Shown: in pieces, positions 3,272 to 60,708 of the stretch
Layout: every line of letters begins with the position of its first letter
Numbering within the stretch: position 1 is the first letter of the stretch
NCBI GenBank assembly: GCA_037783545.1
Contig: JBBELK010000678.1
Coordinates: 62,001 to 126,000 of the forward strand
Length of the DNA stretch: 64,000 nucleotides
DNA from: Henricia sp. BOLD:AAB3569
Taxonomy: Eukaryota > Echinodermata > Asteroidea > Spinulosida > Echinasteridae
Direction: 5' to 3'
Position numbers and translations under genes: made by a program
The notes under the pieces: model-generated
The model's input: the letters and a program-made list of their open reading frames with translations, nothing else
Databases searched by the model: none
What the model was told of the DNA's origin: nothing

Positions 3272-3398
3272 GAGAAATTTCAAAGTTTAGAAAAAACTGG
3301 GTTGAGGCTTCCTGACTGCTCTCGCGCAAACCGTGGCTGTCTGTACACACCTCTTTGGGGTACTCCTGAGTTGTGCGCATGCTCAGTCATTCGGACTG

Positions 3399-3452
3399 TC
3401 GTTAACGCACCGCAGTTTGGCTCGGTCGTTAACGCACCGCAGTTTGGGGCGG
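3399..3452 (+). repeat. 27-bp tandem duplication at left junction of cassette 1
   Basis: Satellite positions 128-154 occur twice in a row, at 3399-3425 and 3426-3452. The copies start TCGTTAACGC; the first ends GGCTCGG and the second GGGGCGG. Both copies lie on the left side of the insert, so this is not a conventional target-site duplication, which would put one copy on each side. It is present in all three cassettes and so predates their spread. Confidence 0.95.
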
Positions 3453-3790
3453 TCGGGTTGGCGTACGGGTTCTTTCCTCGCTGGCCTATGATGACCGCTT
3501 TCCAAAGGACTACCCTTGCACATAGGTAGTTTGGAGGAGTTTTTCGCGGAATCCCGTGATGTCCTGGAACGTTGCTCAATGATGGAGTGACCAGTACGTA
3601 CGTCACGGGGAACGCCGATGCAATTTTGGAACACGATTGGATCCGAGTCTGCGGTCTTGATTCTTCCAGACCTGGACTGGTGACGATTGTGGTTTTATGA
3701 GGATGTACCTGTGGTGCTTCTCGAAGGATATGACCTGATACTCGGACACGATCGACCAATATTGGTGATGATTGTGATGGAGAATACTCG

Positions 3791-4070
3791 CCGGATAATG
3801 ACCTGGATTGGCAACGACAACGAATGAGGAAATTTGGTGGATAAATGACCTGGACTGGCAACGACAACGAATGAGGAAATTTGGCAATAACGACGAACAA
3901 TTGGTGGATAAATGACCTGGACTGGCAACGACTACGAATGAGGAAATTTGGCAATAACGGCGAACGCTTAGTGGATAAATGACCTGGACTGGCAACGACT
4001 ACGAATGAGGAAATTTGGCAATAACGGCGAACGCTTAGTGGATAAATGACCTGGACTGGCAACGACAACG
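3791..4070 (+). repeat. 67-bp minisatellite in cassette 1
   Basis: Units beginning GTGGATAAATGACC start at 3837, 3904, 3971 and 4038, exactly 67 bp apart. The last is partial and fades after about 33 bp. A shorter leading unit begins CCGGATAATGACC at 3791. Measured from the shared GACCTG core, copies lie at 3800, 3847, 3914, 3981 and 4048. Two more decayed cores sit upstream at 3669 (GACCTGGACTGG) and 3732 (GACCTGATACT), spaced 63 and 68 bp, close to the 67-bp unit, so the repeat was once longer on its left side. Confidence 0.93.
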
Positions 4071-4115
4071 GCTGAAGCACTGGTTCTATCGGTAACAACG
4101 TTGGACTGGTTAGCG

Positions 4116-4139
4116 TGTTTTATTCGGACGAATAAAACA
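4116..4139. other. Perfect 11-bp inverted repeat with 2-nt loop near right end of cassette 1
   Basis: The left arm TGTTTTATTCG (4116-4126) is the exact reverse complement of the right arm CGAATAAAACA (4129-4139), with GA between them. It lies 11 bp before the point where satellite resumes at 4151. In position it resembles the 3' hairpin of Helitron transposons, but the cassette does not end in the CTRR tetranucleotide, so the comparison is only suggestive. A T run follows the stem in the forward direction (TTTTAG). Confidence 0.9.
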
Positions 4140-4295
4140 TTTTAGAAAAAGGCAATTTGGTCACAGTGTGGTCCAAACGTCGGCAAATTTGGAGGTCGAA
4201 AAATGTTCCAACGAACTTCAAATTGTGCATGCCCTAAACTCTCTATATTGCGCACTTGTCATAAAAAATTGACAGACTTTCGCCGGGAAATGGCA

Positions 4296-5187
4296 GAGAA
4301 ATTTCAAAGTTTAGAAAAAACTGGGTTGAGGCTTCCTGACTGCTCTCGCGCAAACCGTGGCTGTCTGTACACACCTCTTTGGGGTACTCCTGAGTTGTGC
4401 GCATGCTCAGTCATTCGGACTGTCGTTAACGCACCGCAGTTTGGCTCGGCAATTTGGTCAAAGTGTGGTCCAAACGTCGGCAAATTTGGGGGTCGAAAAA
4501 TGTTCCGACGAACTTCAAATTTTGCATGCCCTAAACTCTCTATATTGCGCACTTGTCATAAAAAATTGAAAGACTTTCGCCGGGAAATGGAAGAGAAATT
4601 TCAAAGTTTAGAAAAAACTGGGTTGAGGCTTCCTGACTGCTCTCGCGCAAACCGTGGCTGTCTGTACACACCTCTTTGGGGTACTCCTGAGTTGTGCGCA
4701 TGCTCAGTCATTCGGACTGTCGTTAACGCACCGCAGTTTGGCTCGGCAATTTGGTCAAAGTGTGGTCCAAACGTCGGCAAATTTGGAGGTCGAAAAATGT
4801 TCCGACGAACTTCAAATTTTGCATGCCCTAAACTCTCTATATTGCGCACTTGTCATAAAAAATTGACAGACTTTCGCCGGAAAATGGCAGAGAAATTTCA
4901 AAGTTTAGAAAAAACTGGGTTGAGGCTTCCTGACTGCTCTCGCGCAAACCGTGGCTGTCTGTACACACCTCTTTGGGGTACTCCTGAGTTGTGCGCATGC
5001 TCAGTCATTCGGACTGTCGTTAACGCACCGCAGTTTGGCTCGGCAATTTGGTCAAAGTGTGGTCCAAACGTCGGCAAATTTGGAGGTCGAAAAATGTTCC
5101 GACGAACTTCAAATTTTGCATGCCCTAAACTCTTTATATTGCGCACTTGTCATAAAAAAATTGACATACTTTCGCCGGGAAATGGCA
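4296..5187 (+). repeat. Satellite segment between cassette 1 and the 10-monomer duplication
   Basis: Three monomers start at 4296, 4593 and 4890. The first is G type (A195G), has TTGAAAGAC in place of TTGACAGAC and ends in EE type (C296A). The second is K type (G289A). The third is F type with one extra A and G277T. The right half of this third monomer matches the right half of the monomer at 7863, which places the left breakpoint of the following 10-monomer duplication inside it. Confidence 0.88.
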
Positions 5188-8160
5188 GAGAAATTTCAAA
5201 GTTTAGAAAAAACTGGGTTGAGGCTTCCTGACTGCTCTCGCGCAAACCGTGGCTGTCTGTACACACCTCTTTGGGGTACTCCTGAGTTGTGCGCATGCTC
5301 AGTCATTCGGACTGTCGTTAACGCACCGCAGTTTGGCTCGGCAATTTGGTCAAAGTGTGGTCCAAACGTCGGCAAATTTGGAGGTCGAAAAATGTTCCGA
5401 CGAACTTCAAATTTTGCATGCCCTAAACTCTCTATATTGCGCACTTGTCATAAAAAATTGACAGACTTTCGCCGGGAAATGGCAGAGAAATTTCAAAGTT
5501 TAGAAAAAACTGGGTTGAGGCTTCCTGACTGCTCTCGCGCAAACCGTGGCTGTCTGTACACACCTCTTTGGGGTACTCCTGAGTTGTGCGCATGCTCAGT
5601 CATTCGGACTGTCGTTAACGTACCGCAGTTTGGCTCGGCAATTTGGTCAAAGTGTGGTCCAAACGTCGGCAATTTTGGAGGTCGAAAAATTTTCCGACGA
5701 ACTTCAAATTTTGCATGCCCTAAACTCTCTATATTGCGCACTTGTCATAAAAAATTGACAGACTTTCGCCGGGAAATGGCAGAGAAATTTCAAAGTTTAG
5801 AAAAAACTGGGTTGAGGCTTCCTGACTGCTCTCGCGCAAACCGTGGCTGTCTGTACACACCTCTTTGGGGTACTCCTGAGTTGTGCGCATGCTCAGTCAT
5901 TCGGACTGTCGTTAACGCACCGCAGTTTGGCTCGGCAATTTGGTCAAAGTGTGGTCCAAACGTCGGCAAATTTGGAGGTCGAAAAATGTTCCGACGAACT
6001 TCAAATTTTGCATGCCCTAAACTCTCTATATTGCGCACTTGTCATAAAAAATTGACAGACTTTCGCCGGAAAATGGCAGAGAAATTTCAAAGTTTAGAAA
6101 AAACTGGGTTGAGGCTTCCTGACTGCTCTCGCGCAAACCGTGGCTGTCTGTACACACCTCTTTGGGGTACTCCTGAGTTGTGCGCATGCTCAGTCATTCG
6201 GACTGTCGTTAACGCACCGCAGTTTGGCTCGGCAATTTGGTCAAAGTGTGGTCCAAACGTCGGCAAATTTGGAGGTCGAAAAATGTTCCGACGAACTTCA
6301 AATTTTGCATGCCCTAAACTCTCTATATTGCGCACTTGTCATAAAAAATTGACAGACTTTCGCCGGAAAATGGCAGAGAAATTTCAAAGTTTAGAAAAAA
6401 CTGGGTTGAGGCTTCCTGACTGCTCTCGCGCAAACCGTGGCTGTCTGTACACACCTCTTTGGGGTACTCCTGAGTTGTGCGCATGCTCAGTCATTCGGAC
6501 TGTCGTTAACGCACCGCAGTTTGGCTCGGCAATTTGGTCAAAGTGTGGTCCAAACGTCGGCAAATTTGGAGGTCGAAAAATGTTCCGACGAACTTCAAAT
6601 TTTGCATGCCCTAAACTCTTTATATTGCGCACTTGTCATTAAAAAAATTGACATACTTTCGCCGGGAAATGGCAGAGAAATTTCAAAGTTTAGAAAAAAC
6701 TGGGTTGAGGCTTCCTGACTGCTCTCGCGCAAACCGTGGCTGTCTGTACACACCTCTTTGGGGTACTCCTGAGTTGTGCGCATGCTCAGTCATTCGGACT
6801 GTCGTTAACGCACCGCAGTTTGGCTCGGCAATTTGGTCAAAGTGTGGTCCAAACGTCGGCAAATTTGGAGGTCGAAAAATGTTCCGACGAACTTCAAATT
6901 TTGCATGCCCTAAACTCTCTATATTGCGCACTTGTCATAAAAAATTGACAGACTTTCGCCGGGAAATGGCAGAGAAATTTCAAAGTTTAGAAAAAACTGG
7001 GTTGAGGCTTCCTGACTGCTCTCGCGCAAACCGTGGCTGTCTGTACACACCTCTTTGGGGTACTCCTGAGTTGTGCGCATGCTCAGTCATTCGGACTGTC
7101 GTTAACGTACCGCAGTTTGGCTCGGCAATTTGGTCAAAGTGTGGTCCAAACGTCGGCAATTTTGGAGGTCGAAAAATTTTCCGACGAACTTCAAATTTTG
7201 CATGCCCTAAACTCTCTATATTGCGCACTTGTCATAAAAAATTGACAGACTTTCGCCGGGAAATGGCAGAGAAATTTCAAAGTTTAGAAAAAACTGGGTT
7301 GAGGCTTCCTGACTGCTCTCGCGCAAACCGTGGCTGTCTGTACACACCTCTTTGGGGTACTCCTGAGTTGTGCGCATGCTCAGTAATTCGGACTGTCGTT
7401 AACGCACCGCAGTTTGACTCGGCAATTTGGTCAAAGTGTGGTCCAAACGTCGGCAAATTTGGAGGTCGAAAAATGTTCCGACGAACTTCAAATTTTGCAT
7501 GCCCTAAACTCTCTATATTGCGCACTTGTCATAAAAAATTGACAGACTTTCGCCGGGAAATGGCACAGAAATTTCAAAGTTTAGAAAAAACTGGGTTGAG
7601 GCTTCCTGACTGCTCTCGCGCAAACCGTGGCTGTCTGTACAGACCTATTTGGGGTACTCCTGAGTTGTGCGCATGCTCAGTCATTCGGACTGTCGTTAAC
7701 GCACCGCAGTTTGGCTCGGCAATTTGGTCAAAGTGTGGTCCAAACGTCGGCAAATTTGGAGGTCGAAAAATGTTCCGACGAACTTCAAATTTTGCATGCC
7801 CTAAACTCTCTATATTGCGCACTTGTCATAAAAAATTGACAGACTTTCGCCGGGAAATGGCAGAGAAATTTCAAAGTTTAGAAAAAACTGGGTTGAGGCT
7901 TCCTGACTGCTCTCGCGCAAGCCGTGGCTGTCTGTACACACCTCTTTGGGGTACTCCTGAGTTGTGCGCATGCTCAGTCATTCGGACTGTCGTTAACGCA
8001 CCGCAGTTTGGCTCGGCAATTTGGTCAAAGTGTGGTCCAAACGTCGGCAAATTTGGAGGTCGAAAAATGTTCCGACGAACTTCAAATTTTGCATGCCCTA
8101 AACTCTTTATATTGCGCACTTGTCATAAAAAAATTGACATACTTTCGCCGGGAAATGGCA
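5188..8160 (+). repeat. 10-monomer higher-order repeat, copy A
   Basis: The monomer order is plain (5188), V (5485), K (5782), K (6079), F with CATTAAAA (6376), plain (6675), V (6972), D (7269), RPI (7566), and a hybrid S plus F monomer (7863). Copy B at 8161 repeats this order exactly until the last monomer. Period is 2973 bp, that is ten monomers plus three 1-bp insertions. The unusual CATTAAAAAAATTG variant near 6638 recurs at 9611, exactly one period later. Confidence 0.95.
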
Positions 8161-11132
8161 GAGAAATTTCAAAGTTTAGAAAAAACTGGGTTGAGGCTTC
8201 CTGACTGCTCTCGCGCAAACCGTGGCTGTCTGTACACACCTCTTTGGGGTACTCCTGAGTTGTGCGCATGCTCAGTCATTCGGACTGTCGTTAACGCACC
8301 GCAGTTTGGCTCGGCAATTTGGTCAAAGTGTGGTCCAAACGTCGGCAAATTTGGAGGTCGAAAAATGTTCCGACGAACTTCAAATTTTGCATGCCCTAAA
8401 CTCTCTATATTGCGCACTTGTCATAAAAAATTGACAGACTTTCGCCGGGAAATGGCAGAGAAATTTCAAAGTTTAGAAAAAACTGGGTTGAGGCTTCCTG
8501 ACTGCTCTCGCGCAAACCGTGGCTGTCTGTACACACCTCTTTGGGGTACTCCTGAGTTGTGCGCATGCTCAGTCATTCGGACTGTCGTTAACGTACCGCA
8601 GTTTGGCTCGGCAATTTGGTCAAAGTGTGGTCCAAACGTCGGCAATTTTGGAGGTCGAAAAATTTTCCGACGAACTTCAAATTTTGCATGCCCTAAACTC
8701 TCTATATTGCGCACTTGTCATAAAAAATTGACAGACTTTCGCCGGGAAATGGCAGAGAAATTTCAAAGTTTAGAAAAAACTGGGTTGAGGCTTCCTGACT
8801 GCTCTCGCGCAAACCGTGGCTGTCTGTACACACCTCTTTGGGGTACTCCTGAGTTGTGCGCATGCTCAGTCATTCGGACTGTCGTTAACGCACCGCAGTT
8901 TGGCTCGGCAATTTGGTCAAAGTGTGGTCCAAACGTCGGCAAATTTGGAGGTCGAAAAATGTTCCGACGAACTTCAAATTTTGCATGCCCTAAACTCTCT
9001 ATATTGCGCACTTGTCATAAAAAATTGACAGACTTTCGCCGGAAAATGGCAGAGAAATTTCAAAGTTTAGAAAAAACTGGGTTGAGGCTTCCTGACTGCT
9101 CTCGCGCAAACCGTGGCTGTCTGTACACACCTCTTTGGGGTACTCCTGAGTTGTGCGCATGCTCAGTCATTCGGACTGTCGTTAACGCACCGCAGTTTGG
9201 CTCGGCAATTTGGTCAAAGTGTGGTCCAAACGTCGGCAAATTTGGAGGTCGAAAAATGTTCCGACGAACTTCAAATTTTGCATGCCCTAAACTCTCTATA
9301 TTGCGCACTTGTCATAAAAAATTGACAGACTTTCGCCGGAAAATGGCAGAGAAATTTCAAAGTTTAGAAAAAACTGGGTTGAGGCTTCCTGACTGCTCTC
9401 GCGCAAACCGTGGCTGTCTGTACACACCTCTTTGGGGTACTCCTGAGTTGTGCGCATGCTCAGTCATTCGGACTGTCGTTAACGCACCGCAGTTTGGCTC
9501 GGCAATTTGGTCAAAGTGTGGTCCAAACGTCGGCAAATTTGGAGGTCGAAAAATGTTCCGACGAACTTCAAATTTTGCATGCCCTAAACTCTTTATATTG
9601 CGCACTTGTCATTAAAAAAATTGACATACTTTCGCCGGGAAATGGCAGAGAAATTTCAAAGTTTAGAAAAAACTGGGTTGAGGCTTCCTGACTGCTCTCG
9701 CGCAAACCGTGGCTGTCTGTACACACCTCTTTGGGGTACTCCTGAGTTGTGCGCATGCTCAGTCATTCGGACTGTCGTTAACGCACCGCAGTTTGGCTCG
9801 GCAATTTGGTCAAAGTGTGGTCCAAACGTCGGCAAATTTGGAGGTCGAAAAATGTTCCGACGAACTTCAAATTTTGCATGCCCTAAACTCTCTATATTGC
9901 GCACTTGTCATAAAAAATTGACAGACTTTCGCCGGGAAATGGCAGAGAAATTTCAAAGTTTAGAAAAAACTGGGTTGAGGCTTCCTGACTGCTCTCGCGC
10001 AAACCGTGGCTGTCTGTACACACCTCTTTGGGGTACTCCTGAGTTGTGCGCATGCTCAGTCATTCGGACTGTCGTTAACGTACCGCAGTTTGGCTCGGCA
10101 ATTTGGTCAAAGTGTGGTCCAAACGTCGGCAATTTTGGAGGTCGAAAAATTTTCCGACGAACTTCAAATTTTGCATGCCCTAAACTCTCTATATTGCGCA
10201 CTTGTCATAAAAAATTGACAGACTTTCGCCGGGAAATGGCAGAGAAATTTCAAAGTTTAGAAAAAACTGGGTTGAGGCTTCCTGACTGCTCTCGCGCAAA
10301 CCGTGGCTGTCTGTACACACCTCTTTGGGGTACTCCTGAGTTGTGCGCATGCTCAGTAATTCGGACTGTCGTTAACGCACCGCAGTTTGACTCGGCAATT
10401 TGGTCAAAGTGTGGTCCAAACGTCGGCAAATTTGGAGGTCGAAAAATGTTCCGACGAACTTCAAATTTTGCATGCCCTAAACTCTCTATATTGCGCACTT
10501 GTCATAAAAAATTGACAGACTTTCGCCGGGAAATGGCACAGAAATTTCAAAGTTTAGAAAAAACTGGGTTGAGGCTTCCTGACTGCTCTCGCGCAAACCG
10601 TGGCTGTCTGTACAGACCTATTTGGGGTACTCCTGAGTTGTGCGCATGCTCAGTCATTCGGACTGTCGTTAACGCACCGCAGTTTGGCTCGGCAATTTGG
10701 TCAAAGTGTGGTCCAAACGTCGGCAAATTTGGAGGTCGAAAAATGTTCCGACGAACTTCAAATTTTGCATGCCCTAAACTCTCTATATTGCGCACTTGTC
10801 ATAAAAAATTGACAGACTTTCGCCGGGAAATGGCAGAGAAATTTCAAAGTTTAGAAAAAACTGGGTTGAGGCTTCCTGACTGCTCTCGCGCAAGCCGTGG
10901 CTGTCTGTACACACCTCTTTGGGGTACTCCTGAGTTGTGCGCATGCTCAGTCATTCGGACTGTCGTTAACGCACCGCAGTTTGGCTCGGCAATTTGGTCA
11001 AAGTGTGGTCCAAACGTCGGCAAATTTGGGGGTCGAAAAATGTTCCGACGAACTTCAAATTTTGCATGCCCTAAACTCTCTATATTGCGCACTTGTCATA
11101 AAAAATTGACAGACTTTCGCCGGGAAATGGAA
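8161..11132 (+). repeat. 10-monomer higher-order repeat, copy B
   Basis: Monomers start at 8161, 8458 (V), 8755 (K), 9052 (K), 9349 (F, CATTAAAA), 9648, 9945 (V), 10242 (D), 10539 (RPI) and 10836 (S). I found no difference from copy A at the tag positions through the RPI monomer. The last monomer differs: here it is S plus G type (A59G, A195G) and it ends in EE type, whereas the copy A counterpart switches to F type in its right half. Copy B therefore probably keeps the original continuation. Confidence 0.94.
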
Positions 11133-12915
11133 GAGAAATTTCAAAGTTTAGAAAAAACTGGGTTGAGGCTTCCTGACTGCTCTCGCGCAAACCGTGGCTG
11201 TCTGTACACACCTCTTTGGGGTACTCCTGAGTTGTGCGCATGCTCAGTCATTCGGACTGTCGTTAACGCACCGCAGTTTGGCTCGGCAATTTGGTCAAAG
11301 TGTGGTCCAAACGTCGGCAAATTTGGAGGTCGAAAAATGTTCCGACGAACTTCAAATTTTGCATGCCCTAAACTCTCTATATTGCGCACTTGTCATAAAA
11401 AATTGACAGACTTTCGCCGGGAAATGGCAGAGAAATTTCAAAGTTTAGAAAAAACTGGGTTGAGGCTTCCTGACTGCTCTCGCGCAAACCGTGGCTGTCT
11501 GTACACACCTCTTTGGGGTACTCCTGAGTTGTGCGCATGCTCAGTCATTCGGACTGTCGTTAACGCACCGCAGTTTGGCTCGGCAATTTGGTCAAAGTGT
11601 GGTCCAAACGTCGGCAAATTTGGAGGTCGAAAAATGTTCCGACGAACTTCAAATTTTGCATGCCCTAAACTCTCTATATTGCGCACTTGTCATAAAAAAT
11701 TGACAGACTTTCGCCGGGAAATGGCAGAGATATTTCAAAGTTTAGAAAAAACTGGGTTGAGGCTTCCTGACTGCTCTCGCGCAAGCCGTGGCTGTCTGTA
11801 CACACCTCTTTGGGGTACTCCTGAGTTGTGCGCATGCTCAGTCATTCGGACTGTCGTTAACGCACCGCAGTTTGGCTCGGCAATTTGGTCAAAGTGTGGT
11901 CCAAACGTCGGCAAATTTGGGGGTCGAAAAATTTTCCGACGAACTTCAAATTTTGCATGCCCTAAACTCTCTATATTGCGCACTTGTCATAAAAAATTGA
12001 CAGACTTTCGCCGGGAAATGGAAGAGAAATTTCAAAGTTTAGAAAAAACTGGGTTGAGGCTTCCTGACTGCTCTCGCGCAAACCGTGGCTGTCTGTACAC
12101 ACCTCTTTGGGGTACTCCTGAGTTGTGCGCATGCTCAGTCATTCGGACTGTCGTTAACGCACCGCAGTTTGGCTCGGCAATTTGGTCAAAGTGTGGTCCA
12201 AACGTCGGCAAATTTGGAGGTCGAAAAATGTTCCGACGAACTTCAAATTTTGCATGCCCTAAACTCTCTATATTGCGCACTTGTCATAAAAAATTGACAG
12301 ACTTTCGCAAGGAAATGGCAGAGAAATTTCAAAGTTTAGAAAAAAACTGGGTTGAGGCTTCCTGACTGCTCTCGCGCAAACCGTGGCTGTCTGTACACAC
12401 CTCTTTGGGGTACTCCTGAGTTGTGCGCATGCTCAGTCATTCGGACTGTCGTTAACGCACCGCAGTTTGGCTCGGCAATTTGGTCAAAGTGTGGTCCAAA
12501 CGTCGGCAAATTTGGAGGTCGAAAAATGTTCCGACGAACTTCAAATTTTGCATGCCCTAAACTCTCTATATTGCGCACTTGTCATAAAAAATTGACAGAC
12601 TTTCGCCGGGAAATGGCAGAGAAATTTCAAAGTTTAGAAAAAACTGGGTTGAGGCTTCCTGACTGCTCTCGCGCAAACCGTGGCTGTCTGTACACACCTC
12701 TTTGGGGTACTCCTGAGTTGTGCGCATGCTCAGTCATTCGGACTGTCGTTAACGCACCGCAGTTTGGCTCGGCAATTTGGTCAAAGTGTGGTCCAAACGT
12801 CGGCAAATTTGGAGGTCGAAAAATGTTCCGACGAACTTTAAATTTTGCATGCCCTAAACTCTCTATATTGCGCACTTGTCATAAAAAATTGACAGACTTT
12901 CGCCGGGAAATGGCA
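11133..12915 (+). repeat. Satellite segment with early EE, I, S and G type monomers
   Basis: Six monomers start at 11133, 11430, 11727, 12024, 12321 and 12619. The 11727 monomer combines A5T, A59G, A195G and G207T. The next (12024) carries C296A on its left flank and CGCAAGG in place of CGCCGGG near its right end. The same two-monomer pair recurs at 12916 and 13213, 1189 bp later, which marks a 4-monomer duplication. The 12619 monomer has ACTTTAAAT in place of ACTTCAAAT. Confidence 0.9.
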
Positions 12916-15900
12916 GAGAAATTTCAAAGTTTAGAAAAAACTGGGTTGAGGCTTCCTGACTGCTCTCGCGCAAGCCGTGGCTGTCTGTACACACCTCTTT
13001 GGGGTACTCCTGAGTTGTGCGCATGCTCAGTCATTCGGACTGTCGTTAACGCACCGCAGTTTGGCTCGGCAATTTGGTCAAAGTGTGGTCCAAACGTCGG
13101 CAAATTTGGGGGTCGAAAAATTTTCCGACGAACTTCAAATTTTGCATGCCCTAAACTCTCTATATTGCGCACTTGTCATAAAAAATTGACAGACTTTCGC
13201 CGGGAAATGGAAGAGAAATTTCAAAGTTTAGAAAAAACTGGGTTGAGGCTTCCTGACTGCTCTCGCGCAAACCGTGGCTGTCTGTACACACCTCTTTGGG
13301 GTACTCCTGAGTTGTGCGCATGCTCAGTCATTCGGACTGTCGTTAACGCACCGCAGTTTGGCTCGGCAATTTGGTCAAAGTGTGGTCCAAACGTCGGCAA
13401 ATTTGGAGGTCGAAAAATGTTCCGACGAACTTCAAATTTTGCATGCCCTAAACTCTCTATATTGCGCACTTGTCATAAAAAATTGACAGACTTTCGCAAG
13501 GAAATGGCAGAGAAATTTCAAAGTTTAGAAAAAACTGGGTTGAGGCTTCCTGACTGCTCTCGCGCAAACCGTGGCTGTCTGTACACACCTCTTTGGGGTA
13601 CTCCTGAGTTGTGCGCATGCTCAGTCATTCGGACTGTCGTTAACGCACCGCAGTTTGGCTCGGCAATTTGGTCAAAGTGTGGTCCAAACGTCGGCAAATT
13701 TGGAGGTCGAAAAATGTTCCGACGAACTTCAAATTTTGCATGCCCTAAACTCTCTATATTGCGCACTTGTCATAAAAAATTGACAGACTTTCGCCGGGAA
13801 ATGGCAGAGATATTTCAAAGTTTAGAAAAAACTGGGTTGAGGCTTCCTGACTGCTCTCGCGCAAACCGTGGCTGTCTGTACACACCTCTTTGGGGTACTC
13901 CTGAGTTGTGCGCATGCTCAGTCATTCGGACTGTCGTTAACGCACCGCAGTTTGGCTCGGCAATTTGGTCAAAGTGTGGTCCAAACGTCGGCAAATTTGG
14001 AGGTCGAAAAATGTTCCGACGAACTTCAAATTTTGCATGCCCTAAACTCTCTATATTGCGCACTTGTCATAAAAAATTGACAGACTTTCGCCGGGAAATG
14101 GCAGAGAAATTTCAAAGTTTAGAAAAAACTGGGTTGAGGCTTCCTGACTGCTCTCGCGCAAGCCGTGGCTGTCTGTACACACCTCTTTGGGGTACTCCTG
14201 AGTTGTGCGCATGCTCAGTCATTCGGACTGTCGTTAACGCACCGCAGTTTGGCTCGGCAATTTGGTCAAAGTGTGGTCCAAACGTCGGCAAATTTGGAGG
14301 TCGAAAAATGTTCCGACGAACTTCAAATTTTGCATGCCCTAAACTCTCTATATTGCGCACTTGTCATAAAAAATTGACAGACTTTCGCCGGGAAATGGCT
14401 GAGAAATTTCAAAGTTTAGAAAAAACTGGGTTGAGGCTTCCTGACTGCTCTCGCGCAAACCGTGGCTGTCTGTACACACCTCTTTGGGGTACTTCTGAGT
14501 TGTGCGCATGCTCAGTCATTCGGACTGTCGTTAACGCACCGCAGTTTGGCTCGGCAATTTGGTCAAAGTGTGGTCCAAACGTCGGCAAATTTGGAGGTCG
14601 AAAAATGTTCCAACGAACTTCAAATTGTGCATGCCCTAAACTCTCTATATTGCGCACTTGTCATAAAAAATTGACAGACTTTCGCCGGGAAATGGCAGAG
14701 AAATTTCAAAGTTTAGAAAAAAACTGGGTTGAGGCTTCCTGACTGCTCTCGCGCAAACCGTGGCTGTCTGTACACACCTCTTTGGGGTACTCCTGAGTTG
14801 TGCGCATGCTCAGTCATTCGGACTGTCGTTAACGCACCGCAGTTTGGCTCGGCAATTTGGTCAAAGTGTGGTCCAAACGTCGGCAAATTTGGGGGTCGAA
14901 AAATGTTCCGACGAACTTCAAATTTTGCATGCCCTAAACTCTCTATATTGCGCACTTGTCATAAAAAATTGACAGACTTTCGCCGGGAAATGGAAGAGAA
15001 ATTTCAAAGTTTAGAAAAAACTGGGTTGAGGCTTCCTGACTGCTCTCGCGCAAACCGTGGCTGTCTGTACACACCTCTTTGGGGTACTCCTGAGTTGTGC
15101 GCATGCTCAGTCATTCGGACTGTCGTTAACGCACCGCAGTTTGGCTCGGCAATTTGGTCAAAGTGTGGTCCAAACGTCGGCAAATTTGGAGGTCGAAAAA
15201 TGTTCCGACGAACTTCAAATTTTGCATGCCCTAAACTCTCTATATTGCGCACTTGTCATAAAAAATTGACAGACTTTCGCCGGGAAATGGCAGAGAAATT
15301 TCAAAGTTTAGAAAAAACTGGGTTGAGGCTTCCTGACTGCTCTCGCGCAAACCGTGGCTGTCTGTACACACCTGTTTGGGGTACTCCTGAGTTGTGCGCA
15401 TGCTCAGTCATTCGGACTGTCGTTAACGCACCGCAGTTTGGCTCGGCAATTTGGTCAAAGTGTGGTCCAAACGTCGGCAAATTTGGAGGTCGAAAAATGT
15501 TCCGACGAACTTCAAATTTTGCATGCCCTAAACTCTCTATATTGCGCACTTGTCATAAAAAATTGACAGACTTTCGCCGGGAAATGGCAGAGATATTTCA
15601 AAGTTTAGAAAAAACTGGGTTGAGGCTTCCTGACTGCTCTCGCGCAAACCGTGGCTGTCTGTACACACCTCTTTGGGGTACTCCTGAGTTGTGCGCATGC
15701 TCAGTCATTCGGACTGTCGTTAACGCACCGCAGTTTGGCTCGGCAATTTGGTCAAAGTGTGGTCCAAACGTCGGCAAATTTGGAGGTCGAAAAATGTTCC
15801 GACGAACTTCAAATTTTGCATGCCCTAAACTCTCTATATTGCGCACTTGTCATAAAAAATTGACAGACTTTCGCCGGGAAATGGCAGACAAATTTCAAAG

Positions 15901-50367: not shown

Positions 50368-52150
50368 GAGAAATTTCAAAGTTTAGAAAAAACTGGGTTG
50401 AGACTTCCTGACTGCTCTCGCGCAAACCGTGGCTGTCTGTACACACCTCTTTAGGGTACTCCTGAGTTGTGCGCATGCTCAGTCATTCGGACTGTCGTTA
50501 ACGCACCGCAGTTTGGCTCGGCAATTTGGTCAAAGTGTGGTCCAAACGTCGGCAAATTTGGAGGTCGAAAAATGTTCCGACGAACTTCAAATTTTGCATG
50601 CCCTAAACTCTTTATATTGCGCACTTGTCATAAAAAAATTGACATACTTTCGCCGGGAAATGGCAGAGAAATTTCAAAGTTTAGAAAAAACTGGGTTGAG
50701 GCTTCCCGACTGCTCTCGCGCAAACCGTGGCTGTCTGTACACACCTCTTTGGGGTACTCCTGAGTTGTGCGCATGCTCAGTCATTCGGACTGTCGTTAAC
50801 GCACCGCAGTTTGGCTCGGCAATTTGGTCAAAGTGTGGTCCAAACGTCGGCAAATTTGGAGGTCGAAAAATGTTCCGACGAACTTCAAATTTTGCATGCC
50901 CTAAACTCTCTATATTGCGCACTTGTCATAAAAAATTGACAGACTTTCGCCGGGAAATGGCAGAGAAATTTCAAAGTTTAGAAAAAACTGGGTTGAGGCT
51001 TCCTGACTGCTCTCGCGCAAACCGTGGCTGTCTGTACACACCTCTTTGGGGTACTCCTGAGTTGTGCGCATGCTCAGTAATTCGGACTGTCGTTAACGCA
51101 CCGCAGTTTGACTCGGCAATTTGGTCAAAGTGTGGTCCAAACGTCGGCAAATTTGGAGGTCGAAAAATGTTCCGACGAACTTCAAATTTTGCATGCCCTA
51201 AACTCTCTATATTGCGCACTTGTCATAAAAAATTGACAGACTTTCGCCGGGAAATGGCAGAGAAATTTCAAAGTTTAGAAAAAACTGGGTTGAGGCTTCC
51301 TGACTGCTCTCGCGCAAGCCGTGGCTGTCTGTACACACCTCTTTGGGGTACTCCTGAGTTGTGCGCATGCTCAGTCATTCGGACTGTCGTTAACGCACCG
51401 CAGTTTGGCTCGGCAATTTGGTCAAAGTGTGGTCCAAACGTCGGCAAATTTGGGGGTCGAAAAATGTTCCGACGAACTTCAAATTTTGCATGCCCTAAAC
51501 TCTCTATATTGCGCACTTGTCATACAAAATTGACAGACTTTCGCCGGGAAATGGAAGAGAAATTTCAAAGTTTAGAAAAAACTGGGTTGAGGCTTCCTGA
51601 CTGCTCTCGCGCAAACCGTGGCTGTCTGTACACACCTCTTTGGGGTACTCCTGAGTTGTGCGCATGTTCAGTCATTCGGACTGTCGTTAACGCACCGCAG
51701 TTTGGCTCGGCAATTTGGTCAAAGTGTGGTCCAAACGTCGGCAAATTTGGAGGTCGAAAAATGTTCCAACGAACTTCAAATTTTGCATGCCCTAAACTCT
51801 CTATATTGCGCACTTGTCATAAAAAATTGACAGACTTTCGCCGGGAAATGGCAGAGAAATTTCAAAGTTTAGAAAAAACTGGGTTGAGGCTTCCTGACTG
51901 CTCTCGCGCAAACCGTGGCTGTCTGTACACACCTCTTTGGGGTACTCCTGAGTTGTGCGCATGCTCAGTCATTCGGACTGTCGTTAACGCACCGCAGTTT
52001 GGCTCGGCAATTTGGTCAAAGTGTGGTCCAAACGTCGGCAAATTTGGGGGTCGAAAAATGTTCCGACGAACTTCAAATTTTGCATGCCCTAAACTCTCTA
52101 TATTGCGCACTTGTCATAAAAAATTGACAGACTTTCGCCGGGAAATGGAA
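50368..52150 (+). repeat. Satellite segment ahead of the cassette-bearing 4279-bp unit
   Basis: Six monomers. The first (50368) has GAGACTTCC and CTTTAGGG, the latter giving a stop in the otherwise open forward frame, and is F type. The second has CTTCCCGAC. The third is D type, and the fourth S plus G type with CATACAAAA. The fifth has GCATGTTCAG and CCAACGA, and the sixth is G type ending in EE. Confidence 0.9.
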
Positions 52151-53465
52151 GAGAAATTTCAAAGTTTAGAAAAAACTGGGTTGAGGCTTCCTGACTGCTC
52201 TCGCGCAAACCGTGGCTGTCTGTACACACCTCTTTGGGGTACTCCTGAGTTGTGCGCATGCTCAGTCATTCGGACTGTCGTTAACGTACCGCAGTTTGGC
52301 TCGGCAATTTGGTCAAAGTGTGGTCCAAACGTCGGCAATTTTGGAGGTCGAAAAATTTTCCGACGAACTTCAAATTTTGCATGCCCTAAACTCTCTATAT
52401 TGCGCACTTGTCATAAAAAATTGACAGACTTTCGCCTAGAAATGGCAGAGAAATTTCAAAGTTTAGAAAAAACTGGGTTGAGGCTTCCTGACTGCTCTCG
52501 CGCAAACCGTGGCTGTCTGTACACACCTCTTTGGGGTACTCCTGAGTTGTGCGCATGCTCAGTAATTCGGACTGTCGTTAACGCACCGCAGTTTGACTCG
52601 GCAATTTGGTCAAAGTGTGGTCCAAACGTCGGCAAATTTGGAGGTCGAAAAATGTTCCGACGAACTTCAAATTTTGCATGCCCTAAACTCTCTATATTGC
52701 GCACTTGTCATAAAAAATTGACAGACTTTCGCCGGGAAATGGCACAGAAATTTCAAAGTTTAGAAAAAACTGGGTTGAGGCTTCCTGACTGCTCTCGCGC
52801 AAACCGTGGCTGTCTGTACAGACCTATTTGGGGTACTCCTGAGTTGTGCGCATGCTCAGTCATTCGGACTGTCGTTAACGCACCGCAGTTTGGCTCGGCA
52901 ATTTGGTCAAAGTGTGGTCCAAACGTCGGCAAATTTGGAGGTCGAAAAATGTTCCGACGAACTTCAAATTTTGCATGCCCTAAACTCTCTATATTGCGCA
53001 CTTGTCATAAAAAATTGACAGACTTTCGCCGGGAAATGGCAGAGAAATTTCAAAGTTTAGAAAAAACTGGGTTGAGGCTTCCTGACTGCTCTCGCGCATA
53101 CCGTGGCTGTCTGTACACACCTCTTTGGGGTACTCCTGAGTTGTGCGCATGCTCAGTCATTCTGACTGTCGTTAACGCACCGCAGTTTGGCTCGGCAATT
53201 TGGTCAAAGTGTGGTCCAAACGTCGGCAAATTTGGGGGTCGAAAAATGTTCCGACGAACTTTAAATTTTGCATGCCCTAAACTCTCTATATTGCGCACTT
53301 GTCATAAAAAATTGACAGACTTTCGCCGGGAAATGGAAGAGAAATTTCAAAGTTTAGAAAAAACTGGGTTGAGGCTTCCTGACTGCTCTCGCGCAAACCG
53401 TGGCTGTCTGTACACACCTCTTTGGGGTACTCCTGAGTTGTGCGCATGCTCAGTCATTCGGACTG

Positions 53466-53519
53466 TCGTTAACGCACCGCAGTTTGGCTCGGTCGTTAAC
53501 GCACCGCAGTTTGGGGCGG
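53466..53519 (+). repeat. 27-bp tandem duplication at left junction of cassette 2
   Basis: The two copies are 53466-53492 and 53493-53519. They have the same end difference (GGCTCGG then GGGGCGG) as in cassette 1, so the duplication was already present before the cassette was copied. Confidence 0.94.
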
Positions 53520-53847
53520 TCGGGTTGGCGTACGGGTTCTTTCCTCGCTGGCCTGTGATGACCGCTTTCCAAAGGACTACCCTTGCACATAGGTAGTTTG
53601 GAGGAGTTTTTCGCGGAATCCCGTGATGTCCTGGAACGTTGCTCAATGATGGAGTGACCAGTACGTACGTCACGGGGAACGCCGATGCAATTTTGGAACA
53701 CGATTGGATCCGAGTCTGCGGTCTTGATTCTTCCAGACCTGGACTGGTGACGATTGTGGTTTTATGAGGATGTACCTGTGGTGCTTCTCGAAGGATATGA
53801 CCTGATACTCGGACACGATTGGTGATGATTGTGATGGAGAATACTCG

Positions 53848-54127
53848 CCGGATAATGACCTGGATTGGCAACGACAACGAATGAGGAAATGTGGTGGATA
53901 AATGACCTGGACTGGCAACGACAACGAATGAGGAAATTTGGCAATAACGGCGAACAATTGGTGGATAAATGACCTGGACTGGCAACGACTACGAATGAGG
54001 AAATTTGGCAATAACGGCGAACGCTTAGTGGATAAATGACCTGGACTGGCAACGACTACGAATGAGGAAATTTGGCAATAACGGCGAACGCTTAGTGGAT
54101 AAATGACCTGGACTGGCAACGACAACG
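53848..54127 (+). repeat. 67-bp minisatellite in cassette 2
   Basis: GTGGATAAAT unit starts are at 53894, 53961, 54028 and 54095, each 67 bp apart, preceded by a shortened unit at 53848. The decayed upstream cores are at 53736 and 53799. Here the distance from 53799 to the next core (53857) is 58 bp, 10 less than in cassette 1. Confidence 0.93.
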
Positions 54128-54172
54128 GCTGAAGCACTGGTTCTATCGGTAACAACGTTGGACTGGTTAGCG

Positions 54173-54196
54173 TGTTTTATTCGGACGAATAAAACA
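54173..54196. other. Perfect 11-bp inverted repeat in cassette 2
   Basis: Arms TGTTTTATTCG (54173-54183) and CGAATAAAACA (54186-54196) with a GA loop, 11 bp before satellite resumes at 54208. Identical to the copy in cassette 1. Confidence 0.9.
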
Positions 54197-57100
54197 TTTT
54201 AGAAAAAGGCAATTTGGTCAAAGTGTGGTCCAAACGTCGGCAAATTTGGAGGTCGAAAAATGTTCCGACGAACTTCAAATTGTGCATGCCCTAAACTCTC
54301 TATATTGCGCACTTGTCATAAAAAATTGACAGACTTTCGCCGGGAAATGGCAGAGATATTTCAAAGTTTAGAAAAAACTGGGTTGAGGCTTCCTGACTGC
54401 TCTCGCGCAAACCGTGGCTGTCTGTACACACCTCTTTGGGGTACTCCTGAGTTGTGCGCATGCTCAGTCATTCGGACTGTCGTTAACGCACCGCAGTTTG
54501 GCTCGGCAATTTGGTCAAAGTGTGGTCCAAACGTCGGCAAATTTGGAGGTCGAAAAATGTTCCGACGAACTTCAAATTTTGCATGCCCTAAACTCTCTAT
54601 ATTGCGCACTTGTCATAAAAAATTGACAGACTTTCGCCGGGAAATGGCAGAGAAATTTCAAAGTTTAGAAAAAACTGGGTTGAGGCTTCCTGACTGCTCT
54701 CGCGCAAACCGTGGCTGTCTGTACACACCTCTTTGGGGTACTCCTGAGTTGTGCGCATGCTCAGTCATTCGGACTGTCGTTAACGCACCGCAGTTTGGCT
54801 CGGCAATTTGGTCAAAGTGTGGTCCAAACGTCGGCAAATTTGGAGGTCGAAAAATGTTCCGACGAACTTCAAATTTTGCATGCCCTAAACTCTCTATATT
54901 GCGCACTTGTCATAAAAAATTGACAGACTTTCGCCGGGAAATGGCAGAGAAATTTCAAAGTTTAGAAAAAACTGGGTTGAGGCTTCCTGACTGCTCTCGC
55001 GCAAACCGTGGCTGTCTGTACACACCTCTTTGGGGTACTCCTGAGTTGTGCGCATGCTCAGTCATTCGGACTGTCGTTAACGCACCGCAGTTTGGCTCGG
55101 CAATTTGGTCAAAGTGTGGTCCAAACGTCGGCAAATTTGGAGGTCGAAAAATGTTCCGACGAACTTCAAATTTTGCATGCCCTAAACTCTCTATATTGCG
55201 CACTTGTCATAAAAAATTGACAGACTTTCGCCGGGAAATGGCAGAGAAATTTCAAAGTTTAGAAAAAATGGGTTGAGGCTTCCTGACTGCTCTCGCGCAA
55301 ACCGTGGCTGTCTGTACACACCTCTTTGGGGTACTCCTGAGTTGTGCGCATGCTCAGTCATTCGGACTGTCGTTAACGCACCGCAGTTTGGCTCGGCAAT
55401 TTGGTCAAAGTGTGGTCCAAACGTCGGCAAATTTGGAGGTCGAAAAATGTTCCGACGAACTTCAAATTGTGCATGCCCTAAACTCTCTATATTGCGCACT
55501 TGTCATAAAAAATTGACAGACTTTCGCCGGGAAATGGAAGAGAAATTTCAAAGTTTAGAAAAAACTGGGTTGAGGCTTCCTGACTGCTCTCGCGCAAACC
55601 GTGGCTGTCTGTACACACCTCTTTGGGGTACTCCTGAGTTGTGCGCATGCTCAGTCATTCGGACTGTCGTTAACGCACCGCAGTTTGGCTCGGCAATTTG
55701 GTCAAAGTGTGGTCCAAACGTCGGCAAATTTGGAGGTCGAAAAATGTTCCGACGAACTTCAAATTTTGCATGGCCTAAACTCTCTATATTGCGCACTTGT
55801 CATAAAAAATTGACAGACTTTCGCCGGGAAATGGCAGAGAAATTTCAAAGTTTAGAAAAAATGGGTTGAGGCTTCCTGACTGCTCTCGCGCAAACCGTGG
55901 CTGTCTGTACACACCTCTTTGGGGTACTCCTGAGTTGTGCGCATGCTCAGTCATTCGGACTGTCGTTAACGCACCGCAGTTTGGCTCGGCAATTTGGTCA
56001 AAGTGTGGTCCAAACGTCGGCAAATTTGGAGGTCGAAAAATGTTCCGACGAACTTCAAATTTTGCATGCCCTAAACTCTCTATATTGCGCACTTGTCATA
56101 AAACATTGACAGACTTTCGCCGGGAAATGGAAGAGAAATTTCAAAGTTTAGAAAAAACTGGGTTGAGGCTTCCTGACTGCTCTCGCGCAAACCGTGGCTG
56201 TCTGTACACACCTCTTTGGGGTACTCCTGAGTTGTGCGCATGCTCAGTCATTCGGACTGTCGTTAACGCACCGCAGTTTGGCTCGGCAATTTGGTCAAAG
56301 TGTGGTCCAAACGTCGGCAAATTTGGAGGTCGAAAAATGTTCCGACGAACTTCAAATTTTGCATGCCCTAAACTCTCTATATTGCGCACTTGTCATAAAA
56401 AATTGACAGACTTTCGCCGGGAAATGGAAGAGAAATTTCAAAGTTTAGAAAAAACTGGGTTGAGGCTTCCTGACTGCTCTCGCGCAAACCGTGGCTGTCT
56501 GTACACACCTCTTTGGGGTACTCCTGAGTTGTGCGCATGCTCAGTCATTCGGACTGTCGTTAACGTACCGCAGTTTGGCTCGGCAATTTGGTCAAAGTGT
56601 GGTCCAAACGTCGGCAATTTTGGAGGTCGAAAAATTTTCCGACGAACTTCAAATTTTGCATGCCCTAAACTCTCTATATTGCGCACTTGTCATAAAAAAT
56701 TGACAGACTTTCGCCGGGAAATGGCAGAGAAATTTCAAAGTTTAGAAAAAACTGGGTTGAGGCTTCCTGACTGCTCTCGCGCAAACCGTGGCTGTCTGTA
56801 CACACCTCTTTGGGGTACTCCTGAGTTGTGCGCATGCTCAGTAATTCGGACTGTCGTTAACGCACCGCAGTTTGACTCGGCAATTTGGTCAAAGTGTGGT
56901 CCAAACGTCGGCAAATTTGGAGGTCGAAAAATGTTCCGACGAACTTCAAATTTTGCATGCCCTAAACTCTCTATATTGCGCACTTGTCATAAAAAATTGA
57001 CAGACTTTCGCCGGGAAATGGCACAGAAATTTCAAAGTTTAGAAAAAACTGGGTTGAGGCTTCCTGACTGCTCTCGCGCAAACCGTGGCTGTCTGTACAG

Positions 57101-57744
57101 ACCTATTTGGGGTACTCCTGAGTTGTGCGCATGCTCAGTCATTCGGACTGTCGTTAACGCACCGCAGTTTGGCTCGGCAATTTGGTCAAAGTGTGGTCCA
57201 AACGTCGGCAAATTTGGAGGTCGAAAAATGTTCCGACGAACTTCAAATTTTGCATGCCCTAAACTCTCTATATTGCGCACTTGTCATAAAAAATTGACAG
57301 ACTTTCGCCGGGAAATGGCAGAGAAATTTCAAAGTTTAGAAAAAACTGGGTTGAGGCTTCCTGACTGCTCTCGCGCATACCGTGGCTGTCTGTACACACC
57401 TCTTTGGGGTACTCCTGAGTTGTGCGCATGCTCAGTCATTCTGACTGTCGTTAACGCACCGCAGTTTGGCTCGGCAATTTGGTCAAAGTGTGGTCCAAAC
57501 GTCGGCAAATTTGGGGGTCGAAAAATGTTCCGACGAACTTTAAATTTTGCATGCCCTAAACTCTCTATATTGCGCACTTGTCATAAAAAATTGACAGACT
57601 TTCGCCGGGAAATGGAAGAGAAATTTCAAAGTTTAGAAAAAACTGGGTTGAGGCTTCCTGACTGCTCTCGCGCAAACCGTGGCTGTCTGTACACACCTCT
57701 TTGGGGTACTCCTGAGTTGTGCGCATGCTCAGTCATTCGGACTG

Positions 57745-57798
57745 TCGTTAACGCACCGCAGTTTGGCTCGGTCGTTAACGCACCGCAGTTTGGGGCGG
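57745..57798 (+). repeat. 27-bp tandem duplication at left junction of cassette 3
   Basis: The copies are at 57745-57771 and 57772-57798, with the same internal difference as in cassettes 1 and 2. Confidence 0.94.
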
Positions 57799-58126
57799 TC
57801 GGGTTGGCGTACGGGTTCTTTCCTCGCTGGCCTGTGATGACCGCTTTCCAAAGGACTACCCTTGCACATAGGTAGTTTGGAGGAGTTTTTCGCGGAATCC
57901 CGTGATGTCCTGGAACGTTGCTCAATGATGGAGTGACCAGTACGTACGTCACGGGGAACGCCGATGCAATTTTGGAACACGATTGGATCCGAGTCTGCGG
58001 TCTTGATTCTTCCAGACCTGGACTGGTGACGATTGTGGTTTTATGAGGATGTACCTGTGGTGCTTCTCGAAGGATATGACCTGATACTCGGACACGATTG
58101 GTGATGATTGTGATGGAGAATACTCG

Positions 58127-58406
58127 CCGGATAATGACCTGGATTGGCAACGACAACGAATGAGGAAATGTGGTGGATAAATGACCTGGACTGGCAACGA
58201 CAACGAATGAGGAAATTTGGCAATAACGGCGAACAATTGGTGGATAAATGACCTGGACTGGCAACGACTACGAATGAGGAAATTTGGCAATAACGGCGAA
58301 CGCTTAGTGGATAAATGACCTGGACTGGCAACGACTACGAATGAGGAAATTTGGCAATAACGGCGAACGCTTAGTGGATAAATGACCTGGACTGGCAACG
58401 ACAACG
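58127..58406 (+). repeat. 67-bp minisatellite in cassette 3
   Basis: Unit starts are at 58173, 58240, 58307 and 58374, with a shortened leading unit at 58127. The copy number is the same as in cassettes 1 and 2, so this minisatellite has not visibly changed length since the cassettes separated. Confidence 0.93.
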
Positions 58407-58451
58407 GCTGAAGCACTGGTTCTATCGGTAACAACGTTGGACTGGTTAGCG

Positions 58452-58475
58452 TGTTTTATTCGGACGAATAAAACA
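58452..58475. other. Perfect 11-bp inverted repeat in cassette 3
   Basis: Same arms and GA loop as in the other two cassettes, 11 bp before satellite resumes at 58487. Confidence 0.9.
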
Positions 58476-60708
58476 TTTTAGAAAAAGGCAATTTGGTCAA
58501 AGTGTGGTCCAAACGTCGGCAAATTTGGAGGTCGAAAAATGTTCCGACGAACTTCAAATTGTGCATGCCCTAAACTCTCTATATTGCGCACTTGTCATAA
58601 AAAATTGACAGACTTTCGCCGGGAAATGGCAGAGATATTTCAAAGTTTAGAAAAAACTGGGTTGAGGCTTCCTGACTGCTCTCGCGCAAACCGTGGCTGT
58701 CTGTACACACCTCTTTGGGGTACTCCTGAGTTGTGCGCATGCTCAGTCATTCGGACTGTCGTTAACGCACCGCAGTTTGGCTCGGCAATTTGGTCAAAGT
58801 GTGGTCCAAACGTCGGCAAATTTGGAGGTCGAAAAATGTTCCGACGAACTTCAAATTTTGCATGCCCTAAACTCTCTATATTGCGCACTTGTCATAAAAA
58901 ATTGACAGACTTTCGCCGGGAAATGGCAGAGAAATTTCAAAGTTTAGAAAAAACTGGGTTGAGGCTTCCTGACTGCTCTCGCGCAAACCGTGGCTGTCTG
59001 TACACACCTCTTTGGGGTACTCCTGAGTTGTGCGCATGCTCAGTCATTCGGACTGTCGTTAACGCACCGCAGTTTGGCTCGGCAATTTGGTCAAAGTGTG
59101 GTCCAAACGTCGGCAAATTTGGAGGTCGAAAAATGTTCCGACGAACTTCAAATTTTGCATGCCCTAAACTCTCTATATTGCGCACTTGTCATAAAAAATT
59201 GACAGACTTTCGCCGGGAAATGGCAGAGAAATTTCAAAGTTTAGAAAAAACTGGGTTGAGGCTTCCTGACTGCTCTCGCGCAAACCGTGGCTGTCTGTAC
59301 ACACCTCTTTGGGGTACTCCTGAGTTGTGCGCATGCTCAGTCATTCGGACTGTCGTTAACGCACCGCAGTTTGGCTCGGCAATTTGGTCAAAGTGTGGTC
59401 CAAACGTCGGCAAATTTGGAGGTCGAAAAATGTTCCGACGAACTTCAAATTTTGCATGCCCTAAACTCTCTATATTGCGCACTTGTCATAAAAAATTGAC
59501 AGACTTTCGCCGGGAAATGGCAGAGAAATTTCAAAGTTTAGAAAAAATGGGTTGAGGCTTCCTGACTGCTCTCGCGCAAACCGTGGCTGTCTGTACACAC
59601 CTCTTTGGGGTACTCCTGAGTTGTGCGCATGCTCAGTCATTCGGACTGTCGTTAACGCACCGCAGTTTGGCTCGGCAATTTGGTCAAAGTGTGGTCCAAA
59701 CGTCGGCAAATTTGGAGGTCGAAAAATGTTCCGACGAACTTCAAATTGTGCATGCCCTAAACTCTCTATATTGCGCACTTGTCATAAAAAATTGACAGAC
59801 TTTCGCCGGGAAATGGAAGAGAAATTTCAAAGTTTAGAAAAAACTGGGTTGAGGCTTCCTGACTGCTCTCGCGCAAACCGTGGCTGTCTGTACACACCTC
59901 TTTGGGGTACTCCTGAGTTGTGCGCATGCTCAGTCATTCGGACTGTCGTTAACGCACCGCAGTTTGGCTCGGCAATTTGGTCAAAGTGTGGTCCAAACGT
60001 CGGCAAATTTGGAGGTCGAAAAATGTTCCGACGAACTTCAAATTTTGCATGGCCTAAACTCTCTATATTGCGCACTTGTCATAAAAAATTGACAGACTTT
60101 CGCCGGGAAATGGCAGAGAAATTTCAAAGTTTAGAAAAAATGGGTTGAGGCTTCCTGACTGCTCTCGCGCAAACCGTGGCTGTCTGTACACACCTCTTTG
60201 GGGTACTCCTGAGTTGTGCGCATGCTCAGTCATTCGGACTGTCGTTAACGCACCGCAGTTTGGCTCGGCAATTTGGTCAAAGTGTGGTCCAAACGTCGGC
60301 AAATTTGGAGGTCGAAAAATGTTCCGACGAACTTCAAATTTTGCATGCCCTAAACTCTCTATATTGCGCACTTGTCATAAAACATTGACAGACTTTCGCC
60401 GGGAAATGGAAGAGAAATTTCAAAGTTTAGAAAAAACTGGGTTGAGGCTTCCTGACTGCTCTCGCGCAAACCGTGGCTGTCTGTACACACCTCTTTGGGG
60501 TACTCCTGAGTTGTGCGCATGCTCAGTCATTCGGACTGTCGTTAACGCACCGCAGTTTGGCTCGGCAATTTGGTCAAAGTGTGGTCCAAACGTCGGCAAA
60601 TTTGGAGGTCGAAAAATGTTCCGACGAACTTCAAATTTTGCATGCCCTAAACTCTCTATATTGCGCACTTGTCATAAAAAATTGACAGACTTTCGCCGGG
60701 AAATGGCT

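Follow-up and report, generated by a model that had tools for sequence, protein, structure and literature searches.

The question raised by this stretch of the sea star Henricia sp. BOLD:AAB3569 is how nearly identical cassettes came to occupy one exact position of a satellite monomer. The stretch (hereafter the window) covers 64,000 bp of contig JBBELK010000678.1 (C678:62001-126000) in a 740.7-Mb assembly of 2,104 contigs (GCA_037783545.1), and consists of a single array of a 297-bp satellite, with 208 detected monomer starts, broken by three cassettes of 715-725 bp. A first-pass annotation had explained the cassettes by one ancestral insertion, later moved within the array by unequal exchange. 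Comparison with copies across the assembly suggests that each cassette is most probably the 5' part of a composite tRNA-type short interspersed element (SINE) that is also dispersed outside the satellite, a truncated passenger that has spread with the satellite at the DNA level.

In all three window cassettes the satellite breaks off at ...CTCGG and resumes at GGCAATTT, with GG on either side, as the annotation of a single exact monomer position had it (Table 1). The description of the cassette as non-satellite fits most of its length but not its opening 22-27 bp, which repeat in tandem the 27 bp of satellite next to them (25 of 27 positions identical; maximum of 19 matches in 1,000 shuffles). 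The head that follows holds the motif TGGCGTACGGG (3459-3469 in copy 1), which we take to be A-box-like, and a perfect hairpin lies 11 bases before the cassette end; an equivalent hairpin arose in none of 2,000 shuffles. Few sites distinguish copy 1 from the common satellite form. A stop codon is present in all six frames, and comparison of eight translated pieces (not all of the open stretches) with Pfam gave no reverse transcriptase frame of the cassette's own and one match below the cut-off (E 0.18). A fragment resembling a retroviral-type protease (GYDLILGHDW) had no support from Pfam or PDB and was rejected. Neither a B box nor a 3' tail was found in the three copies, in which AAAAA runs straight into satellite; because both are gone, the short form seen in the window should not be classed as a SINE.

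Copies elsewhere in the assembly were collected in two ways. A 475-base query from the left part of copy 1, including the 27-bp duplication, gave 1,242 candidates, and the 40 that were scored were 99-100% identical to it; the window together with 23 loci fetched around the best-scoring matches, searched with a tolerant 3'-end pattern, provided a first sample of 36 cassettes, every one of which ends in exactly five A followed by GGCAA. This sample is biased, the query having already contained the 27-bp duplication, which is carried by 32 of the 36 cassettes but by 5 of the 16 satellite copies in the second sample. The second search used the exact 3'-end 21-mer, which occurs 969 times (reversed control, 0), a count that requires at least five A and passes over shorter tails and any changed 21-mer, and so tells against leaning on the uniformity of the tails. 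After these 969 ends the sequence continues with a sixth A in 16 cases, with G and then a non-G base in 41 and, by subtraction, with GG in 912; none runs on into C or T. Twenty regions, hand-picked from 100 listed of the 969 places and mostly one per contig (C120 was omitted as already read), contained 21 ends, of which 16 lay in satellite, four in a dispersed element and one in a different tandem repeat that has the hairpin too. The 16 GG-continuing ends of this sample were all in satellite and all had the SINE head, and altogether 52 of 52 GG-continuing ends read lay within satellite. Among the 41 places with G then non-G, 23 were read (loci L037, L040, L041, L054, six on C120, and L055-L067): 14 are non-satellite, six are full SINEs within satellite and three are satellite short forms minus one G.

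The non-satellite loci reveal the likely parent. There the cassette core lies between the boxes of a dispersed SINE with an A-box-like head, a B box, an ACAA tail and target-site duplications, and over 698 bp one such element, L041, matches the satellite copies L042 and L052 base for base. By eye, the duplications measure 13 bp on C120, 11-12 bp at L040, about 10 bp at L061 and 12-13 bp at L062; they are uncertain in L041 and L059 and unreadable in L037 and L054. The motif GGGTTCGAATCC was present in 9 of the 11 loci checked, with a one-base difference in L059 and no occurrence in the stretch of L054, which stops before any B box; C120 is also one base off. With a lowered threshold and the core joined out, ARAGORN returned a tRNA-Glu(ttc)-like fold, while at default settings it found no tRNA in the intact C120 loci. 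Dispersed and full-length copies have a simple-repeat 3' tail, ACAACA, and are comparable to dispersed tRNA-derived SINEs with a conserved central region, putatively MetaSINE-like. Copies outside the satellite with intact ends, which the first-pass annotation had said would indicate an active mobile element, thus exist, and they identify a dispersed SINE as the source of the cassette.

Some further features of the dispersed copies may be recorded here. On C120 (608300-615800; L032-L034) six core copies follow one another head to tail within one SINE, in units of 608-702 bp, which indicates that the core expands as a small satellite inside the SINE. A repeat at L039 (C50:1101432-1102602), with units of about 235 bp in tandem, carries the same hairpin at the end of its units and is similar to the cassette core; it is possibly the origin of the core. 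L037, L040, L041 and L054 have a diverged upstream sequence in common, and the duplication CTCTATGATA is found at both L040 and L061, a pattern that would fit a dispersed SINE carried as a passenger by another repeat, one with GGTGTTAAA motifs.

The six full SINEs within satellite, on three contigs (L056, L064 and L065 on C1177; L055 and L066 on C766; L063 on C1267), bear directly on the insertion site. In the C1177 loci the SINE lies between 11-bp duplicates TGCTCAGTCAT (monomer positions 252-262), the loci reading TGCTCAGTCAT/ACGGGCGGTC...ACAACA/TGCTCAGTCATTCGG (slashes mark junctions), and L063 agrees with them on the right side but is shortened on the left. This target is about 35 bp away from the apparent cassette site, so the exact position, taken earlier as the point of insertion, is not where the full elements entered. 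The L056 left junction, GCTCAGTCATACGGGCGGTCGGG, has 17 occurrences spread over five contigs (reversed control, 0). Five of these sites are on C1177, each 552 bp from a 3' end that continues with GC (three of the five were read), and five are on C211, each 693 bp from a 3' end; one of the latter, L052, was read and continues with GG, as the other four are taken to do, since none of them is listed among the non-GG ends. L052 is an intermediate: its left junction is the original one, and its right end is truncated, reading AAAAA/GGCAATTT (AAAAAG/GCAATTT). A commoner truncated form has the left junction TTTGG/GGCGG (10 of the 16 satellite copies in the 20-region sample), and the form with the 27-bp duplication (5 of the 16) has 436 exact copies genome-wide. 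The substitution A169G is present in all five duplication-bearing forms of that sample and in neither L052, L042 nor the SINE.

Full SINEs at another monomer position, together with the intermediates, imply that the exact in-phase site is a secondary product, and a deletion and a rejoining, each involving ends that contain G, would suffice to produce it. The history would begin with a full SINE (tRNA-like head, core with minisatellite and hairpin, B box, 3' body and ACAA tail) at TGCTCAGTCAT, the state still seen on C1177. Deletion of its 3' half together with satellite up to CTCG would have given AAAAAG/GCAATTT, and the left side may then have been rejoined to a full monomer at TTTGG/GGCGG, restoring the phase and making the insertion look exact. 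The 27-bp satellite duplication, carried by all three window copies, would have been gained later, an order with which the distribution of A169G in the 20-region sample agrees. Copying followed, locally by tandem duplication, as copies 2 and 3 illustrate. Between arrays, the short form may have travelled by DNA-level exchange or conversion with very little flank, or its flanks may later have been replaced by local monomers.

The case for a single origin of the short form rests on the 912 of 969 exact 3' ends that share the derived right-hand context, and uniform 3' ends combined with a shared deletion junction point to DNA-level copying of one short form between arrays. The single ancestral event originally proposed thus survives at genome scale for the short form, while the fixed monomer context attached to it was seen only in the window array. 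The first step may have been less simple. The SINE may have entered the satellite target TGCTCAGTC more than once, independently and in different subfamilies, with recombination mixing the copies later, although this is on the unlikely side: the full SINEs have differing 5' ends and duplications of local type (ACGGGCGG in L056, L064 and L065; CGGCGG in L055 and L066), and the right-truncated L067 has the left junction CCT/GGGCGG. However, the truncated right junction common to 912 of the 969 ends argues for one founder of the short form, and conversion between subfamilies could also yield local-type duplications. This alternative touches the first step only and is compatible with the explanation of the short form as a passenger copied from one truncated SINE.

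Several observations weigh against that explanation. In L055 and L066, full SINEs occupy the same target in monomers of a diverged subfamily, and their duplication shows the variant of that subfamily; L067 joins a subfamily-type left junction to a truncated right end, so that more than one founding insertion is possible. The satellite full SINEs that were read have shorter minisatellite parts (555, 631 and 678 bp) than L052 (698 bp), A169G is also found in L046 and L051, which have no 27-bp duplication, and the 10-bp deletion of window copies 2 and 3 recurs in a separate clade. Ten identical 701-bp cassettes from ten contigs (of 13; one per contig, and a contig resembling another left out) are flanked by monomers differing by 1.39% on the left and 0.87% on the right, and 16 of their 20 flanks are nearer to local monomers than to those beside the identical cassette in other places. 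No correlation links cassette distance with flank distance, either in 25 of the 36 cassettes (one per locus, two from the window; rho -0.01, p 0.51) or in a Mantel test on 15 of the 16 satellite copies (rho -0.21, p 0.81), which is also expected from repeated insertion at one site. Identical cassettes amid unrelated local monomers mean that flanks have been reshuffled or that very short tracts were copied. Divergence does not drop on approach to the right junction: it is 1.23% in the adjacent 30 bp, compared with 0.32-0.70% over the corresponding bases of more distant monomers. To the left, the 30 bp next to the junction show reduced divergence in the one-per-contig set (0.32%, compared with 1.10-1.65%), an effect absent from the identical class (0.74%, compared with 0.00%). 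G196A is found in 28 of 33 left flanks and 30 of 33 right flanks of cassettes in other arrays and is absent from the window flank monomers shown, a contrast suggesting that arrays are locally homogenised.

The same flank data would be accounted for equally well if the short cassette were a site-specific mobile element inserting repeatedly at GG/CAATTT, like an R2-type non-long-terminal-repeat (non-LTR) element or one that depends on such an element. This reading would fit the near-identical cassettes found at one nucleotide amid unrelated local monomers on many contigs, as well as the missing correlation between cassette and flank, and the 27-bp upstream target duplication resembles the upstream target sequence carried by some R2 elements (PMC4370867). 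We nevertheless consider it unlikely. The short form has neither SINE tail nor B box; its tails are uniform (five A in 36 of 36, one extra A in 16 of 969); no 5' truncation was seen in the 20-region sample's 16 satellite cassettes; and the SINE with target-site duplications and the intermediate lie at a different monomer position. An Rfam search for a ribozyme like that of hepatitis delta virus (HDV) gave three matches (E 3.9-7.9), none of them a ribozyme, and a home-made HDV-like descriptor, a weak test, found no match in the cassette. An interim reading of the cassette as an active site-specific element had arisen from the biased first sample and was dropped once the intermediates appeared. 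A Helentron/HINE assignment was likewise abandoned when the SINE was found: a 3' palindrome or hairpin is present, but comparison of the first 150 with the last 120 bp revealed no subterminal inverted repeats of at least 8 exact bases or at least 10 with one mismatch.

If the short form is indeed a SINE-derived passenger, the mechanism of its success is a matter for tentative suggestion. It is somewhat doubtful, though conceivable, that the truncated SINE, itself unable to retrotranspose, acts as a homing passenger of the satellite through ectopic conversion into empty monomers, with hardly any flank retained; equally conjectural is the extension that conversion reaches other arrays and even the diverged subfamily, TGCTCAGTC being the preferred landing site of the parent SINE. 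Among exact 3' ends the short form outnumbers its parent about twenty-fold (912 against 41, the 41 being partly satellite-borne).

Within the window, the relations among the three copies can be followed more closely. Copies 2 and 3 are a recent tandem duplication, lying within repeated segments of 4,279 bp of which 3,989 bp are identical, and local spread of this kind, as first proposed, is also seen in the three cassettes spaced at 3,695 bp on contig C299. Three substitutions and one 10-bp indel separate copy 1 from copies 2 and 3. The annotation had linked all three through a shared RPI-type monomer upstream and T227G in the right half-monomer. With RPI defined as G144C C220G C225A, and T227G taken to be T73G in the present numbering, both were confirmed: RPI lies three monomers before each window cassette, and T73G follows in all three. 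RPI occurs in 8 of 207 window monomers and T73G in 21 of 207; T73G stands three monomers past RPI in three of the eight RPI cases, precisely the cassette-bearing ones. The flanks of copy 1, on the other hand, are little closer to those of copies 2 and 3 than are random monomer pairs. For 1, 2, 3, 4, 6 and 8 monomers per side, the fraction of random pairs with equal or greater similarity was 0.42, 0.28, 0.05, 0.12, 0.24 and 0.23 unweighted, and 0.115, 0.203, 0.026, 0.025, 0.050 and 0.078 when weighted by rarity, the latter being suggestive at best. Local spread by tandem duplication holds for copies 2 and 3; simple unequal exchange, claimed to have acted over some 50 kb, may yet link copy 1, with its mostly near-random flanks, to the other two.

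As a full account, one insertion followed by simple unequal exchange in a fixed V-D-RPI-S context is very improbable. It has in its favour copies 2 and 3, the RPI at -3 and T73G shared by the window trio, and a right flank on contig C642 that is the same as that of copy 1. Among the 36 cassettes of the first sample, however, 30 have a readable monomer at -3, and RPI is there in the window's three only (RPI at -2 occurs once), contrary to the expectation that all copies would share this context; flanks differ as random monomers do, and the source SINE lies outside the satellite. For arrays other than the window this version is already contradicted. Nor was the claimed higher-order repeat context borne out: among monomer offsets 1-59 compared within the window array none stood out as a regular higher-order repeat, the top offset, 5, giving 98.67% identity against 98.58% for the fifteenth-ranked.

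Table 1. Positions of cassettes and associated features in the window, counted from its first base.
Feature	Position	Strand	Details
Cassette copy 1	3426..4150	+	725 bp: 27-bp satellite duplicate plus 698-bp putatively SINE-derived part
Cassette copy 2	53493..54207	+	715 bp; 10-bp deletion relative to copy 1
Cassette copy 3	57772..58486	+	715 bp; identical to copy 2
Satellite GG after cassette 1, echoing GG before it	4151..4152	+	Right junction AAAAA/GGCAATTT
27-bp satellite tandem duplication, left junction of copy 1	3398..3452	+	Likewise 53465-53519 and 57744-57798
Putative SINE-derived part of copy 1	3448..4150	+	Head, core, minisatellite and A5 end; compared with dispersed SINEs
Putative SINE-derived parts of copies 2 and 3, starts	53515 (copy 2); 57794 (copy 3)	+	
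67-bp minisatellite in copy 1	3793..4070	+	Also 53850-54127 and 58129-58406
Perfect 11-bp hairpin near 3' end of copy 2	54173..54196	+	TGTTTTATTCG-GA-CGAATAAAACA
Hairpin in copies 1 and 3, by offset	4116-4139; 58452-58475	+	
Tandem duplication, first copy, with cassette 2	52439..56427	+	Identical to 56718-60706; offset 4279
Tandem duplication, second copy, with cassette 3	56718..60706	+	3,989 bp identical to first copy
RPI-type monomer three before cassette 1	2535..2831	+	Counterparts before the other cassettes at 52602 and 56881

The satellite itself offers some further observations. Identical 949-bp segments begin at 6971, 9944, 17374 and 56429, up to 49 kb apart, and the last directly precedes cassette 3; such identity between far-apart sites indicates that satellite segments have been exchanged over long distances. 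Each monomer in window 4146-5231 has an open frame of 99 codons on the + strand, and the repeated translation matched DUF371 in Pfam (E 2.3e-07), a match probably inflated by that repetition. A coding satellite was rejected: an open frame also arises in 125 of 5,000 shuffles, variants show no codon bias (12 synonymous, 60 non-synonymous), and the array contains monomers of 296-299 bp, which disrupt the frame. No match was found by an Rfam scan of window 1-8000 (E <=1), by blastn of window 3123-4500 against phages and plasmids, or by an exact 23-base satellite pattern in genome and viral collections; the pattern covered the satellite only. A search of titles and abstract openings yielded neither this 297-bp satellite nor this SINE by name.

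Two points of wider interest emerge. Secondary rearrangement can fabricate a seemingly perfect insertion site, and the intermediates may persist in the genome. Exchange of satellite between loci is difficult to test, since monomers by themselves record little of their past, and the 912 exact copies of one junction context provide a countable tracer for it.

In comparison with known systems, the behaviour of the short form appears to match that of dead R2 elements in ribosomal DNA (rDNA) and of ATHILA in satellites. ATHILA is an LTR retrotransposon that has been duplicated inside the centromere satellite arrays of Arabidopsis; it resembles the present case as a transposon copied within satellite after integration, and differs from it in that a truncated tRNA-type SINE, with some 900 exact 3' ends on many contigs, is concerned here. 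The parent shares with dispersed tRNA-derived SINEs its tRNA-like head, B box, ACAA tail and duplications of 10-13 bp, but unlike them it has a core with minisatellite and hairpin between the A and B boxes, and its satellite form is without everything past the core. Internal tandem repeats and a 3' palindrome recall HINE/Helentron elements (PMC7492417), whereas the parent has a tRNA head and is flanked by target-site duplications, and no subterminal inverted repeats were found. A close analogy may be the degenerate R2 of Bacillus rossius rDNA, whose multiplication is ascribed in PMC4370867 to unequal recombination of the units that carry it. As in that system, a dead element in a tandem array would be copied with the units of the array and not by its own transposition; in contrast to R2, whose site specificity stems from its own enzyme and whose host is rDNA, the element here would be a SINE in satellite, with an exact site that is secondary.

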